Shown here: in pieces, positions 23,446-32,319 of the stretch
How positions within the stretch are numbered: the first letter of the stretch is position 1
Layout of the letters: each line of letters opens with the position of its first letter
DNA from: Sulfurimonas sp. HSL3-1
GTDB taxonomy: Bacteria > Campylobacterota > Campylobacteria > Campylobacterales > Sulfurimonadaceae
Assembly: GCF_039645995.1 (NCBI RefSeq)
Contig: NZ_CP147920.1
Coordinates: 496,001-560,000, forward strand
Reading direction: 5' to 3'
DNA: 64,000 nucleotides
Translations under genes and position numbers: made by a program
Notes under the pieces: model-generated
Told to the model about the DNA's origin: nothing
Seen by the model: only the letters and a program-made list of their open reading frames with translations
The model's database searches: none

Positions 23446-24333
23446 ATGAAGACTGAGCAGCTTGACCGTTATCGCGAGGAAATCAAGAGCCGGATCGGGG
23501 CCGAGTTCCGGGGTGAAAACGCCATTTCCACCCCAGTTGATGAGCTCTCCTTCTACTACAGCAGTACGCCGACGAATATGCTGGCGACCATCTATGAACC
23601 CTCCATCTGTGTTATCGTACAGGGCTCGAAAGAGGTGGGAGTGGACGAAGAGCTGATCCCCTACGATCCCAATATGTACCTGCTGGCCTCCGTCCATATG
23701 CCCGCCCGTGTCCGCATCACGGAAGCAACGGAATCACGTCCCTATATGGGGCTGACCGTCACCTTTTCCATGGAGCAGATCTTCGACGTGCTCAAAGAGG
23801 TGGGGCGTTCTTCAAACCCTTCAAAAGGAGCCAAGAGGGGGCTCTATTTCGGCGACATGCAGCCGCGCCTCCTCGACCCTGTTGCCCGCCTGGTGCGGCT
23901 CCTTGAGACCCCGGAGGACATCCCGGTCCTCGCACCCCTCATCACCAAGGAGATCCTCTATAACGTTATGCGCGACGAGGGCGGCGACTTTATCCGCCAG
24001 TACGTGATGGACGGGAGCGCGACCCAGCGGGTTGTCAAGGCGATTACAAAGATCAAAGACGAGTTCCGCGAGGCGCTTCAGGTCAAAGAGCTCGCACACC
24101 ATGTCGGCATGAGCGAATCATCTCTCTACGCGAACTTCAAGAAGATCACGGGGATGAGCCCGCTGCAGTTCCAAAAAAGCCTCCGCCTCCAGGAAGCGCG
24201 CCAGCTGCTGATGTCGCGGGACGTCGAAGCGGCGGAGGTCGCCTTCGAAGTGGGCTACGAAAGCCCGTCGCAGTTCAGCCGGGAATACGCCAGAATGTTC
24301 GGGCTGCCGCCCAAGACCGACACCCGTTTATAA
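23446..24333 (+). CDS. AraC-family transcription regulator (AraC_N type)
   Basis: The 295-residue protein has an N-terminal ligand domain with YEPSICVIVQGSKEV and MYLLASVHMP, typical of the AraC_N regulators often found beside alcohol dehydrogenase genes. The DNA-binding end shows VKELAHHVGMSESSLYANFK and VAFEVGYESPSQFSREYARM. AAGGAGCTAGG precedes the ATG. It is divergent from the ADH-SDR-cupin-CMD operon (gap about 150 bases) and is its likely activator. Its tail is followed by a 120-base gap that leads into the multihaem cytochrome gene on the same strand. Confidence 0.9.
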   Translation: MKTEQLDRYREEIKSRIGAEFRGENAISTPVDELSFYYSSTPTNMLATIYEPSICVIVQGSKEVGVDEELIPYDPNMYLLASVHMPARVRITEATESRPYMGLTVTFSMEQIFDVLKEVGRSSNPSKGAKRGLYFGDMQPRLLDPVARLVRLLETPEDIPVLAPLITKEILYNVMRDEGGDFIRQYVMDGSATQRVVKAITKIKDEFREALQVKELAHHVGMSESSLYANFKKITGMSPLQFQKSLRLQEARQLLMSRDVEAAEVAFEVGYESPSQFSREYARMFGLPPKTDTRL

Positions 24334-24453: not shown

Positions 24454-26808
24454 ATGTTTCGAATGATGACCGCTGCACTCCTGCTTGGCACGGCGGCGCT
24501 GGCCTACAACGCCCAGCCCCCCTTCGCGCAGGACAGACTGATACCGACCACGATCGAACAATACGGCAAAAAGGTTGATGCGTTCAACCCCTTCCGCAAA
24601 TATAACGTCTTCATCAACTACGAGCTTGGCATGCACTGCGCCGGGTTCGACGAGAGCTACTGCTGCATCATCCCGCCCTACAACAGTATCCAGGCGCAGG
24701 GGGTCATCACCGGCAAGGACGGCAAGTCTCCCTATTTCATCCGCAAGGACAACGAGATCCAGCTCTACTACTACGTGGATGACAACAGCTACTCCGAGGG
24801 CAACAAGATGCGCTACTGGGGGGTCAAGAAGGACGTCAACGGAAACGGCCGTACCGACGACAACAACGACAACCTCCCCAACTACGTCTGGAAGCACCTC
24901 TACATCTACGAGGACACTCAGGGGACGATTCCCAAGGGCGCGACCAAGGCGGACCGCAAGTACCTGGGTCTCGACATGCCCATCAAAACCGACCACGGCC
25001 CGACGAACAAACCGCTGTACGGCGGCTACCTCGACTTTGCCGACGAGCACGGCGACAACGTCGTCATGACCGAGACGCTTATTCCCGAGTTGCAGGATGT
25101 CAAGCTCAAGCTCAGCGCCGAGTACACCTGGGACGCCCTGGGGCTGCCGCTGACGGCCTTTACGGACACGGAGCGCAAAGGCACCATCCGCGGCGTCGAC
25201 GACCGCACCTTTCAGCCCTACCAGGTCTCCAAAGTGCGGGTCCACGATAAGCACGGCAAGGCGATCCTCGACGACGAGAAAAGGATCTACGAGTTCATGG
25301 GTACGAACCCCATCGACATTCCCAACTGCCAGGTCTGCCACTCCCGCCAGGGTGTCGCCGCCGTCAAGTCCCGCGAAGAGGGGGTGTGGCAGAGCGACAC
25401 CGAGTACGAGTACTGGATCGGCTACCACCCCGACGTGACCGAGTACATGGCGCGGCTCGCCGAGGGGCTCATCAACATCCTCGCCCTGCACGACAAGCAC
25501 CACGGCACCGATTTCCTGCGCGATTTCAAGACCGACACGCCGAATTTCCGCCTGGGGACCGTCAGCTCCGTCAACTGTACCGACTGCCACGGCGACAACA
25601 TCTCCGGCAACCTGAAGACGCCGCGTGACGGGGTCACGAGCTACAAAGTCATGAAGGCGAAACCGCTGGCCGAGGCGGTCCACGGCTTCCACATGAAAGC
25701 GGCCCCGGTGCCCGACGGCGCCGACCGCCCGGCGAATTGCCAGGTCTGCCACCCGACCCACGGACAGGACAAGAGCATGAACGATGCCGATATGCTCTTC
25801 CGCCTCACGGACGCCTACGGCCACAACATGGTCAAAAACAAAGACCTCCGCATCGCCGGGGGTGGCTGCTACAACGGCCGCGACGCCCACACGAACCAAG
25901 ATGTCAAACCGCCCTTCTTCCTCAACAGCGTCGGACGCTACTACCTCGAAGAGGTGAGCATGAAGGACGAAAAGGGCAAGAAGGTTGAAAAGATGCGCGG
26001 GCTCTACTGTACGCACTGCCACAATACGCTGTCGCAGGAGCTCTACGCCTACGACGCCATCAAGGACCCCAAGTACCAGTCGGGCAAGACCCTGCGCAAC
26101 CGCGACCTCAAAACGGTCGTCTCCGCCCTCGCCGGCGGCAGCATGAAGAAGTTCGCGGCGATGGCGGACCCGAAAGTGGCGGAGACGGAGGCCTACTACA
26201 CCGAGCATGAGGGCGCGGTGCTCTCCACGCTGAAGGGGGCGAAAAAAGACGGAAGCCCGATTCTCGGCGAGTGGGACGACCCGAAAGGCAAAGCGGTCGG
26301 CTACGATGCCGTCAGCGGCGGCTCCGACTGGTGGCTGGCATCGGGCGAACCGCACTGCGCCGACTGCCACGCGGCGCCGTTTGTCGAGGACGAGGGCGGG
26401 GACTACTTCCCGATGGACCAGAACAAGAAGTATGCCCTCTACCGCCACTCGAAAGGGCACGGCAAGCTCTCCTGCCAGAGCTGCCACGAGTCGACGCACG
26501 GTCTCTACCCGACCCGCTTCGACGGGACGCGCAGCATCGACCAGACGACCCATGACCAGGCCATGCAGTACAGCCCCGACGGCAAATACGCCGGTCCGGT
26601 CACCTGCAGTGCCTGCCATACGGTCAACAAAGAGGGCGTCCCGACGTCGCTGGCGGGTACGGAGTACGAGCACGACTACTGGGCATCGGTCACCCTGATG
26701 CACTTCATGCGCCAGAAGAACTTCGATATGCTCCTGCCCATCGACGAACTGCTGCAGCGCTACCCCTACAAACGCTCGAAACAGATCGTAGAGGAGAGTT
26801 GGAAGTAA
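24454..26808 (+). CDS. Periplasmic seven-haem c-type cytochrome
   Basis: The 784-residue protein has a signal peptide (MFRMMTAALLLGTAALA) and seven CxxCH haem sites, with first cysteines at about residues 292, 375, 429, 519, 635, 674 and 718. The first 290 residues have no haem site; they hold a beta-rich module with ELGMHCAGFDESYCC, a phrase I recall from multihaem cytochromes of metal-reducing deltaproteobacteria. The function is unknown: electron transfer to sulfur, nitrogen or extracellular acceptors are all open. It has no cytochrome partners next to it, and it lies downstream of an AraC gene and a palindrome. AT-rich sequence just upstream fits a strong promoter. Confidence 0.88.
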   Translation: MFRMMTAALLLGTAALAYNAQPPFAQDRLIPTTIEQYGKKVDAFNPFRKYNVFINYELGMHCAGFDESYCCIIPPYNSIQAQGVITGKDGKSPYFIRKDNEIQLYYYVDDNSYSEGNKMRYWGVKKDVNGNGRTDDNNDNLPNYVWKHLYIYEDTQGTIPKGATKADRKYLGLDMPIKTDHGPTNKPLYGGYLDFADEHGDNVVMTETLIPELQDVKLKLSAEYTWDALGLPLTAFTDTERKGTIRGVDDRTFQPYQVSKVRVHDKHGKAILDDEKRIYEFMGTNPIDIPNCQVCHSRQGVAAVKSREEGVWQSDTEYEYWIGYHPDVTEYMARLAEGLINILALHDKHHGTDFLRDFKTDTPNFRLGTVSSVNCTDCHGDNISGNLKTPRDGVTSYKVMKAKPLAEAVHGFHMKAAPVPDGADRPANCQVCHPTHGQDKSMNDADMLFRLTDAYGHNMVKNKDLRIAGGGCYNGRDAHTNQDVKPPFFLNSVGRYYLEEVSMKDEKGKKVEKMRGLYCTHCHNTLSQELYAYDAIKDPKYQSGKTLRNRDLKTVVSALAGGSMKKFAAMADPKVAETEAYYTEHEGAVLSTLKGAKKDGSPILGEWDDPKGKAVGYDAVSGGSDWWLASGEPHCADCHAAPFVEDEGGDYFPMDQNKKYALYRHSKGHGKLSCQSCHESTHGLYPTRFDGTRSIDQTTHDQAMQYSPDGKYAGPVTCSACHTVNKEGVPTSLAGTEYEHDYWASVTLMHFMRQKNFDMLLPIDELLQRYPYKRSKQIVEESWK

Positions 26809-29965: not shown

Positions 29966-31195
29966 TTAAAAGCGGATGCAGAAGCGGTGCGTCCCCTCGC
30001 GGTAGTCGTAGACAAGGGTGAAGCCGTGTGCCTGCACGACGGTATCGGTGATGGAGAGGCCGAGGCCGAGCCCGCCGGCCGGATTGGCGCTGGAGAAGGG
30101 CTGCATAACGGTGTCCAAAGGCACATCCAGCGGTGCTCCCGTGTTGGCGATGCAGATCCCCTGGCGGTCGGCGGTGACGGTGACCGGGGGCGCGCTGCTG
30201 TATTTTAGGGCGTTGTCGAGGAGGTTGGACAGGGCACTGATGAAGAGGGGGGCGTCGGCATTGATGCTGACGTCTGGTTCGATGGTGATCATCAGCGCCT
30301 GGCGCCGCTCGGCGGAAAGGTAGAGCTGATGCACTGCGGTTTCCAGCAGCGCACCGAGCTTTTGGGGCGTGCGGTCGAGCCCGACGCTCTGGAGTTTTTC
30401 GACCTGGGCCACGCCGTTGATCAGGTCGTCCATGCGGCTGAAGAGGCGGTTGAGGTAAGCGGTTTGTTCGTTTTCTTCCATCATCGCCAGGGAGAGTTTG
30501 CCCTTGGTCAACGGGGTTTTCAGCTCATGCATGACGTTGCGCAGAAAGAGCTGGCGTGACGCGCGCAGCTGCCGGAGCTGTTCTAGGGCATCATTGAACT
30601 CGTTGGCGATCGCCGCGATCTCGTCACGGCGCGTGCTGGAAGTGTCGATATCGAGGTCGCCGCGGCCGAAACGGCGGATCTGGGTATGCAGATCGCGCAG
30701 CGGCAGGAGGCTGCGGCGCAGCAGGACATAGAGGGTGACGAGCCCCGCCAGCAGCAGCACGAAGATCAGTTGCAGGCCGCCGAAGTTTTCGGCGGGCCGT
30801 TCATCTTTGACAAGGAAGGGATCGCGCCGGATCGTGGAGCGGAAGTAGTAGCTCCCGTCCGCCTCGTAGAGACGCAGCGGCGGTCGCTCCCGGTGTTCCC
30901 GCGCGTCATGGTCGTCCGCGTTACGGGGCGGCTGCAGCTCCCTGGCGTTTTTGGGCAGGGCGCCGGTGGTGAGCAGCGCAAATTGCGCCTCCGCGAGCGC
31001 GGAAGTGCGTTCGGCGCGATCCGTACTGCGGAGGTGGTGCAGCAGACGTGCCAGCTCCATCCCCCGCAGGACCTCCCGGCGTGTTTCCATATGCGAAGCG
31101 GTGACGTGGAACAGGGCGAAGAGCAGCGCCAGCGTCAGTAGCGCCAGGACGAAAAAGAGGTTGAGTTTGAAAAAGATGGAGCGGTGGGGAAGCAT
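29966..31195 (-). CDS. Sensor histidine kinase, Cpx/ArsS-like
   Basis: The 409-residue protein has a transmembrane helix near the start, a periplasmic loop rich in Arg and Asp (DADD/REHRERPPLRL region), a second helix near 150-170 (LQLIFVLLLAGLVTLYVLL), a HAMP linker, the phospho-acceptor segment FLRNVMHELKTPLTKGK, and an ATPase end with NLLDNALKYS and GGLGLGLSI. It starts two bases after the response regulator's stop, so the two are translationally coupled. With the CpxP-like gene upstream, it reads as an envelope stress sensor. Campylobacterotal ArsS kinases have the same shape. Confidence 0.9.
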   Translation of the reverse strand: MLPHRSIFFKLNLFFVLALLTLALLFALFHVTASHMETRREVLRGMELARLLHHLRSTDRAERTSALAEAQFALLTTGALPKNARELQPPRNADDHDAREHRERPPLRLYEADGSYYFRSTIRRDPFLVKDERPAENFGGLQLIFVLLLAGLVTLYVLLRRSLLPLRDLHTQIRRFGRGDLDIDTSSTRRDEIAAIANEFNDALEQLRQLRASRQLFLRNVMHELKTPLTKGKLSLAMMEENEQTAYLNRLFSRMDDLINGVAQVEKLQSVGLDRTPQKLGALLETAVHQLYLSAERRQALMITIEPDVSINADAPLFISALSNLLDNALKYSSAPPVTVTADRQGICIANTGAPLDVPLDTVMQPFSSANPAGGLGLGLSITDTVVQAHGFTLVYDYREGTHRFCIRF

Positions 31196-31197
31196 GC

Positions 31198-31863
31198 TCA
31201 CTCCGTGAATTTGTAGCCGACGCCGCGGACGGAGTGGATGAAGGCGGGGTGTTTCGGGTCCGTCTCGATCTTGCGGCGGATGCGGCCGATGAGCACGTCG
31301 ATGCTGCGTTCCGTGCTCTCCCACCCGATGGCGTCGACGTTGTTGGCGATGAAATCGCGGGAGACGACTTCGCCTTTATGCTTGATGAGCAGGGCGAGAA
31401 GTTCGTATTCGGCGACTGTGAGCGAGAGGGGCTCGCCTTCTTTGTCGATGCGCATGCGCGCGGCATCGACCGAAAACCGTGAGGATTGGCGCGTGACGGT
31501 GCCCGCGTAGCGCCGCAGGTGGCTCTGGATGCGGGCGACGAGTTCGCGTGGTTCGTAGGGCTTGGGGAGGTAATCGTCCGCCCCGTACTCGAGGGCGATG
31601 ACTTTGTCGCTGAGGTCATGCCGGGCGGAGGAGATGATGATGGGGATGTCACTGCGTTCGCGAAGACGACGGCACACCTCGAGCCCGTCGATCTGCGGCA
31701 GGGTCAGGTCCAGCAGCACGGCATCGTAGGATTCGATGCCCAGCGAGCTCAGGGCGCTTGCGGGATGGGTGTAGGCGACGACGTCCATGCCGTACTGCCC
31801 GAGGTAACGTTCGAGCAGTGCGGTGATTTCGGTGTCATCTTCGATTAACAGTATTTTTGCCAT
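31198..31863 (-). CDS. OmpR-family response regulator, CpxR-like
   Basis: The 221-residue protein has a receiver domain with acidic pocket EDD (8-10), phospho-acceptor Asp52 in LLDLTLP and Lys in YLPKPYEP, followed by an OmpR-type winged helix (VISRDFIANNV-like region, RSIDVLIGRIRRKIETD, VRGVGYKF). It sits between the CpxP-like gene and the kinase gene on one strand, with gaps of three and two bases, so all three are one operon. A consensus CpxR-type box lies upstream of the operon. Confidence 0.92.
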   Translation of the reverse strand: MAKILLIEDDTEITALLERYLGQYGMDVVAYTHPASALSSLGIESYDAVLLDLTLPQIDGLEVCRRLRERSDIPIIISSARHDLSDKVIALEYGADDYLPKPYEPRELVARIQSHLRRYAGTVTRQSSRFSVDAARMRIDKEGEPLSLTVAEYELLALLIKHKGEVVSRDFIANNVDAIGWESTERSIDVLIGRIRRKIETDPKHPAFIHSVRGVGYKFTE

Positions 31864-31866
31864 TGC

Positions 31867-32208
31867 CTAGTCGTATTTTGGTCTTTTCATAGGCATTTTA
31901 TCACGATCGCACCGTTTATCCATACGCTGTTTCATGCGGTCGCTGCGCGCGGCGATGTAGGCCTTCTTCTGGTCGTCGGTGAGGACGGCCAAAATGCGGT
32001 CGTTTGTTTTGTCGCGCAGATCGTCCATCTGGTCCATCAGTTTGAACCGTTCGTTTCGCGCTTCCTTGCGGATGGTCTTGAGCTGCTGTTTCTGCGCCGA
32101 TGTGAGGTCAAGGGAATTGAGAAGCATGCGGCTGTCGCCGTGCGGTCCCGCGAAGGCGGCCGTGCCGGCGGCTGCGAGCAGTGCTCCGATGAGAAGTGTC
32201 CGTTTCAT
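31867..32208 (-). CDS. CpxP/Spy-like periplasmic protein
   Basis: The 113-residue product has a signal peptide (MKRTLLIGALLAAAGTAAFA) and a helical body with two LTxxQ motifs, LTSAQKQQL and LTDDQKKAY, which define the CpxP/Spy group. These proteins chaperone unfolded proteins and can damp a Cpx kinase. The C-terminus is rich in Lys, Arg and Met. It is first in the operon with the response regulator (three bases on) and the kinase, which matches CpxP acting on its own sensor. The upstream gap carries a CpxR-type box and a hairpin. Confidence 0.88.
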   Translation of the reverse strand: MKRTLLIGALLAAAGTAAFAGPHGDSRMLLNSLDLTSAQKQQLKTIRKEARNERFKLMDQMDDLRDKTNDRILAVLTDDQKKAYIAARSDRMKQRMDKRCDRDKMPMKRPKYD

Positions 32209-32234
32209 GGTGTGTCCTTTGAAGGAGAATTTTC

Positions 32235-32252
32235 AAGAGGAAACTTCCTCTT
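32235..32252. repeat. Inverted repeat in the leader of the Cpx-like operon
   Basis: AAGAGGAA and TTCCTCTT flank two bases, 27-44 bases before the first gene. It may be a leader hairpin or an operator. Confidence 0.4.
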
Positions 32253-32299
32253 TACGTTTACCATGATAGGACGTCAATGTAAGCGCTCGCGCAACGGGG

Positions 32300-32314
32300 T
32301 GTAAACCGGTGTAA
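32300..32314. promoter_or_regulatory. CpxR-type box GTAAA-N5-GTAAA
   Basis: Two GTAAA half-sites are five bases apart, exactly the direct-repeat consensus known for E. coli CpxR. The box lies about 92-106 bases before the CpxP-like gene, in the short gap after the radical SAM gene. It suggests that the operon activates itself. Confidence 0.6.
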
Positions 32315-32319
32315 ACGGC

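Follow-up and report, generated by a model that had tools for sequence, protein, structure and literature searches.

A Cpx-like operon with an ArsS-family kinase and a conserved TTTAC-repeat promoter in Sulfurimonas sp. HSL3-1

In Sulfurimonas sp. HSL3-1, genes for a Spy/CpxP-like secreted protein, an OmpR-type response regulator and a sensor histidine kinase form an operon whose promoter carries a direct TTTAC repeat at a fixed distance from its −10 hexamer. Judged by its sequence, this is a Cpx-like circuit in its anatomy but not a member of the CpxRA family; it is built on the campylobacterotan ArsRS family. We regard it as probable that an envelope-sensing kinase acts through the regulator, bound to four half-sites, to activate the operon itself, a second operon encoding an exporter, and a gene for a cytochrome.

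The operon runs from 32208 to 29966 on the minus strand of the window, by which we mean the whole 64,000-nucleotide stretch of DNA that was analysed (Table 1). A preliminary description of this DNA had claimed a single operon with gaps of 2-3 bases and a CpxP/Spy-like gene at its head. Successive genes are separated by 3 bases (31864-31866) and 2 bases (31196-31197), and the first protein passes Pfam family PF07813 (27.6 bits; cut-off, 24.3), so that both points held. Among relatives of known structure, Spy is the best for this protein (E 2.3e-4). It shares the LTXXQ family with Spy and ZraP but scores only 36.4 bits against the Spy family model (cut-off, 174). A structure model (pLDDT 74.5, pTM 0.44; nine sequences) predicts a long two-helix hairpin, which would be compatible with Spy/CpxP; a Foldseek search with this model returned 0 matches. 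In Hydrogenimonas (L011-L014), the upstream box and the regulator-kinase pair are kept, but by eye the place of the CpxP-like gene is taken by an ORF of ~40 codons whose N-terminus is hydrophobic. Elsewhere in the window, a gene for a large multihaem cytochrome c, recognised by eye from its several CxxCH motifs, lies on the plus strand at 24454-26808, adjoining an AraC-type regulator at 23446-24333.

Table 1. Genes and promoter elements of the operon (window positions; offsets are counted along the operon strand)
Feature	Position	Strand	Basis
Operator half-site 1, TTTACA, offset 0	32310..32315	-	Invariant across five aligned genus copies; column conservation
Operator half-site 2, TTTACA, offset 10; with half-site 1, the CpxR-type box of the preliminary description	32300..32305	-	Match searches and column conservation
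Probable half-site 3, TTGCGC, offset 21	32289..32294	-	T-T at 21-22 in 94% of 18 aligned sites
Probable half-site 4, CTTACA, offset 32; 9 bases to −10	32278..32283	-	Majority TTGACA at 32-37 over 18 sites
−10 hexamer TATCAT, offset 47; without a good −35 at 16-18 bases	32263..32268	-	Pattern matches and 18-site alignment
Spy/CpxP-like secreted protein, 113 aa, two LTXXQ motifs	31867..32208	-	PF07813; relative Spy; helix-hairpin model
OmpR-type response regulator, 221 aa	31198..31863	-	PF00072 and PF00486; tree
ArsS-family sensor histidine kinase, 409 aa, from ATG 31195	29966..31195	-	NF038389; HAMP, HisKA, HATPase_c (Pfam)

The match to the E. coli CpxR consensus had been taken as the mark of a Cpx system, and here the proteins point elsewhere. 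The kinase passes the ArsS family model NF038389 (296.6 bits, and 296.2 in a second run; cut-off, 250) and fails the NCBIfam CpxA model (80.6 bits; cut-off, 486), and the regulator fails the CpxR model (144.9 bits; cut-off, 341). The regulator scores higher with OmpR (182.5), RpaB (179), MtrA (175.2), CreB (170.6) and others than with CpxR, and it exceeds the cut-off of none of the 25 models listed. Nor do direct TTTAC repeats with a period of 10 bases belong to CpxR alone. PMC11633204 gives the HLR1 element of cyanobacterial RpaB as (G/T)TTACA(T/A)(T/A)NN(G/T)TTACA(T/A)(T/A); since half-sites of this type are also found with other members of the OmpR family, the box is not diagnostic of CpxR. 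RpaB resembles the present regulator in its family and its direct TTACA repeats, but it has other targets and its cut-off (330) lies far above the score found here.

The nearest named relatives found were in Hydrogenimonas, Sulfuricurvum and Sulfurospirillum (55-60% identity), with Helicobacter next. The pair resembles H. pylori ArsRS and the ArsS family in that its kinase is above the NF038389 cut-off and its regulator is 47-53% identical to the Helicobacter ArsR-type regulators. It differs from ArsRS proper in several respects. Three further ArsS-family kinases in this genome score above the cut-off, and the top one (C1:2073922, 394.9 bits) is likelier than the operon kinase to be the genome's ArsS counterpart. 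ArsR-type promoters lack the box, and in this comparison only the present operon contains the LTXXQ gene. In a regulator tree of 65 rows (L141 and L296 dropped for stops or length; identical rows merged), the 18 box regulators fall outside the 34-row ArsR/Helicobacter clade (support 84/88) and also outside an 11-row clade formed by a second LTXXQ-linked regulator. The box regulators may have a single origin; the joint clade of 12 is weakly supported (80/24). The putative start of the recognition helix reads mostly WES-S/T-x-R in box regulators and NxxSSNK in ArsR-type ones.

The second LTXXQ-regulator-kinase module of this genome (C1:1778609-1780791; L202, L281) has an ArsS-family kinase (253.5 bits) and no TTTAC box, and modules like it occur in G007, G014, G021, G022, G035, G072, G081 and G082. 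By eye, LTXXQ-regulator operons in G055, G095, G040 and G015 (L270, L300, L313 and L302) carry TTAA-N7-TTAA-like 11-base repeats upstream rather than TTTAC; these repeats may be what the ArsR-type branch uses as its operator.

The GTAAA-N5-GTAAA box, which the preliminary description had placed about 100 bases upstream, has its near edge 92 bases from the start codon of the first gene. It reads GTAAACCGGTGTAAA at 32301-32315 on the plus strand (TTTACACCGGTTTAC / TTTACACCGGTTTACA on the operon strand) and is the sole exact match within the window (expected, 0.02; present in 2 of 100 shuffles). An alignment of 18 sites extends it. The columns of half-sites 3 and 4 played no part in finding these sites, and the conservation there of TT at 21-22 and of a TTGACA-like word at 32-37 makes four direct half-sites (offsets 0, 10, 21 and 32) probable. 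The last of these half-sites ends 9 bases from the −10 hexamer, and transcription is predicted to start near 32256. At the 16-18 spacing of a −35 element, the best match to TTGACA in any of the 18 sites is 3/6. In PhoB-type promoters the activator stands in for the −35, and a repeat array in place of the missing −35 would likewise be an activator layout.

Two further features were seen in this region. Directly after the −10 hexamer, at window positions 32249-32262, the TTTACGTTTACC motif occurs a second time (operon strand: GTAAACGTAAA); this copy is kept within the genus and not in other genera. In G004 (L098), the leader of the CpxP-like gene contains, downstream of the −10 region and upstream of the start codon, inserted DNA bearing a strong inverted repeat (AGGGCACCTCTAAAGA ... 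TCTTTAGAGGTGCCCT); the sister species lack this insertion.

A genome scan for further boxes, suggested along with the original claim, gave a divided answer. The bare 15-mer is not enriched genome-wide (6 matches vs 4 in the reversed-pattern control), whereas the box with a −10 at the fixed distance (TTTAC-N5-TTWAC-N32-TANNNT) is matched exactly at 3 places in this genome against 0 in the control. Over eight genomes of the genus, the extended pattern has 14 exact matches vs 1 control match; all but one of the 14, hence 13, fall at the three promoters or at the equivalent positions in G003, G004, G006 and G007, and the remaining one is an AT-rich site in G007. The genus members G001, G002 and G005, which have other ArsS-family regulators and no CpxP-like gene, have 0 matches to it. 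In this genome the three matches, all with the 47-base spacing, belong to the operon described here, to C1:264696 and to C1:1093942. The second promoter precedes genes for a DUF4405 protein, an outer-membrane efflux protein, a MacA-like adaptor, an ABC ATPase and a MacB-like permease, in that order, and the third precedes a cytochrome b561 gene. The three-site set was found again in three sister species, and G003 (86% complete) has the first site only.

The exporter and cytochrome sites are known from four close species only. Cytochrome b561 orthologues of other genera lack the site, among them the G021 protein with 74% identity; by eye, no site was seen within 200 bases upstream of 16 orthologues from outside the four species. 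The DUF4405 protein has matches in 8 of 60 genomes, weak beyond the four species (best-scoring, 32% identity). When two mismatches were allowed, the extended pattern gave 45 matches vs 53 in the controls in this genome, and other genera likewise showed no clear excess. At weak extra sites in G031 (C1:1245095 and 258298) and G012 (C47), there is no relative of the operon's proteins. At C1:1459526 of this genome and its counterparts in G004, G006 and G007, a conserved promoter-like stretch, TGTCAAGAGTAATT..CACTAAT.TGATAATTT, matches the pattern with one or two mismatches and is probably another regulator's site.

The preliminary description had also proposed looking for the box in relatives and had named its absence from close ones as what would refute the claim. 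The box is not lost: it persists in the genus and, in degenerate form, beyond it. In the five genus genomes with this promoter (this genome, G000, and G003, G004, G006 and G007), the stretch from the box through the −10 hexamer is nearly invariant and the DNA upstream of it has diverged. Other genera, including Hydrogenimonas, Sulfuricurvum and Sulfurospirillum, carry a degenerate pair (TTTACA-N4-TTAACA and similar). The distance from box start to the −10-like hexamer is 47 bases throughout, within and beyond the genus.

A matrix trained on this genome's three sites alone and scored against 300 dinucleotide shuffles per promoter finds the site in all 14 promoters that precede this operon, or parts of it, in other genomes (0-4 of the 300 shuffles score as well). 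It finds none in eight controls, namely five Helicobacter ArsR-type genes and three paralogues from this genome, for which 37-281 of the 300 shuffles score as well. Because most promoters had been viewed before the columns and spacing were picked, the 14-promoter test is not fully blind, and 3 of the 14 are close sisters. Two later surveys are nearer to blind. In one, of 30 ArsS-family loci, 28 have a regulator; a site is present at 6 of these 28, all six with box-lineage regulators, and absent from the other 22. In the other, PF07813 was searched for in 100 genomes and turned up at 52 places, of which 8 of the window type belong to the matrix test and 44 were scanned separately. Five of these 44 LTXXQ genes have a site, four of them, none viewed beforehand, beside a box-lineage regulator (G032, G041, G019 and G015 C195); at the fifth, G015 C117 (L272), the adjacent regulator is outside the box lineage. 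The CpxP-like gene of G021 (C128) is on a different contig from the regulator-kinase pair (C36), yet each has a site, which ties the gene to the regulator beyond mere neighbourhood. At the level of sequence, the box co-varies with this regulator lineage. Given the conserved box, its fixed spacing and the recurrence of the three-site set in sister species, the operator therefore looks real and functional.

We propose that an envelope signal would be sensed by the kinase and that the regulator would then be phosphorylated. The phosphorylated regulator would bind the four direct half-sites in substitution for a −35 and, once bound, would activate its own operon, the DUF4405-TolC-MacA-MacB exporter operon and the cytochrome b561 gene. 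The LTXXQ protein, made first, may guard the periplasm by analogy with Spy, CpxP and ZraP. CpxP feeds back on CpxA (PMC11790278), and the LTXXQ protein may similarly damp the present kinase. The self-activation put forward in the preliminary description is probable, and these data are best read as a small regulon that includes and activates its own regulator.

The direction of regulation leaves some doubt because H. pylori ArsRS is reported to be negatively autoregulated (PMC9449129). With that family precedent, reported for phosphorylated ArsR, the site could be real but repressive. We consider this improbable: the repeats stop 9 bases before the −10, where the −35 is absent, which is the usual place of an activator, and the spacing is constant in all 18 sites. 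A different question is what the kinase responds to. The signal could be a metal or redox condition rather than general envelope stress, with a ZraP/CnrX-like LTXXQ protein and with the exporter and the b-type cytochrome serving metal or redox stress. This reading is compatible with the activating circuit proposed above and is a serious alternative for the physiology, although on balance we think it rather unlikely. The LTXXQ protein comes close to the Pfam Metal_resist cut-off (27.7 bits vs 29.2) but misses it; a Cys-Asp near its C-terminus is present in 7 of 9 aligned rows (absent from L016 and from L102, a row cut short by the chosen coordinates); and cytochrome b561 and DUF4405 are in the regulon, but none of the three promoters serves a CusA/CzcA or P-type metal exporter.

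In the enteric Cpx system CpxP restrains CpxA and NlpE is an activator. If the operon were a true CpxRA-CpxP system, either passed on from enteric bacteria or common to both groups, this would account for the gene set, since E. coli too combines an LTXXQ periplasmic protein, an OmpR-type regulator and a HAMP kinase. The E. coli K-12 cpxP promoter (TTTACGTTGTTTTAC) also has the same TTTAC-N5-TTTAC repeat on the cpxP strand, 94 bases from the start codon (107 here) and with a candidate −10, TAAACT, at offset 46 (47 here). With repeat, strand and near-equal spacing in common, the likeness goes deeper than had been stated. Even so, a true CpxRA system is very unlikely, and we rejected orthology on the CpxA and CpxR cut-offs that the pair misses. 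In the 65-row tree E. coli CpxR is isolated on a branch 3.06 long, E. coli cpxP diverges from cpxRA but the CpxP-like gene is the first of a co-directional operon here, and the target set of exporter and cytochrome b561 is unlike that of E. coli Cpx. We give equally little credence to a chance match, or to a plain −35 taken for a box (TTTACA-18-TACATT). The missing enrichment of the bare 15-mer would suit chance, but the box recurs, its spacing unchanged, in all 14 promoters taken from other genomes, and the extended pattern outnumbers its control across the genus; a plain −35 was rejected in its turn, as the alternative −10, TACATT, is lost in other genera.

In the open-access literature, we found no prior account of a Cpx-like system in Campylobacterota; PMC11790278 likens H. 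pylori ArsSR to Cpx for acid stress only. It is possible, and we suggest it tentatively, that the Campylobacterota have their own Cpx-like envelope circuit based on an ArsRS-family pair. Its operator and promoter spacing would agree with those of E. coli cpxP to nearly the last base, its core regulon would comprise a CpxP-like chaperone, a MacAB-TolC-type exporter and cytochrome b561, and in Hydrogenimonas a peptide of ~40 residues would replace the chaperone. If this is true, either two systems converged on one operator, or an old OmpR-family promoter was kept while the kinases were exchanged. The defined 53-base promoter signature and the three-operon regulon make this a directly testable regulator, and a clean case for the question of whether similar physiology leads regulators of the OmpR family to converge on one operator.
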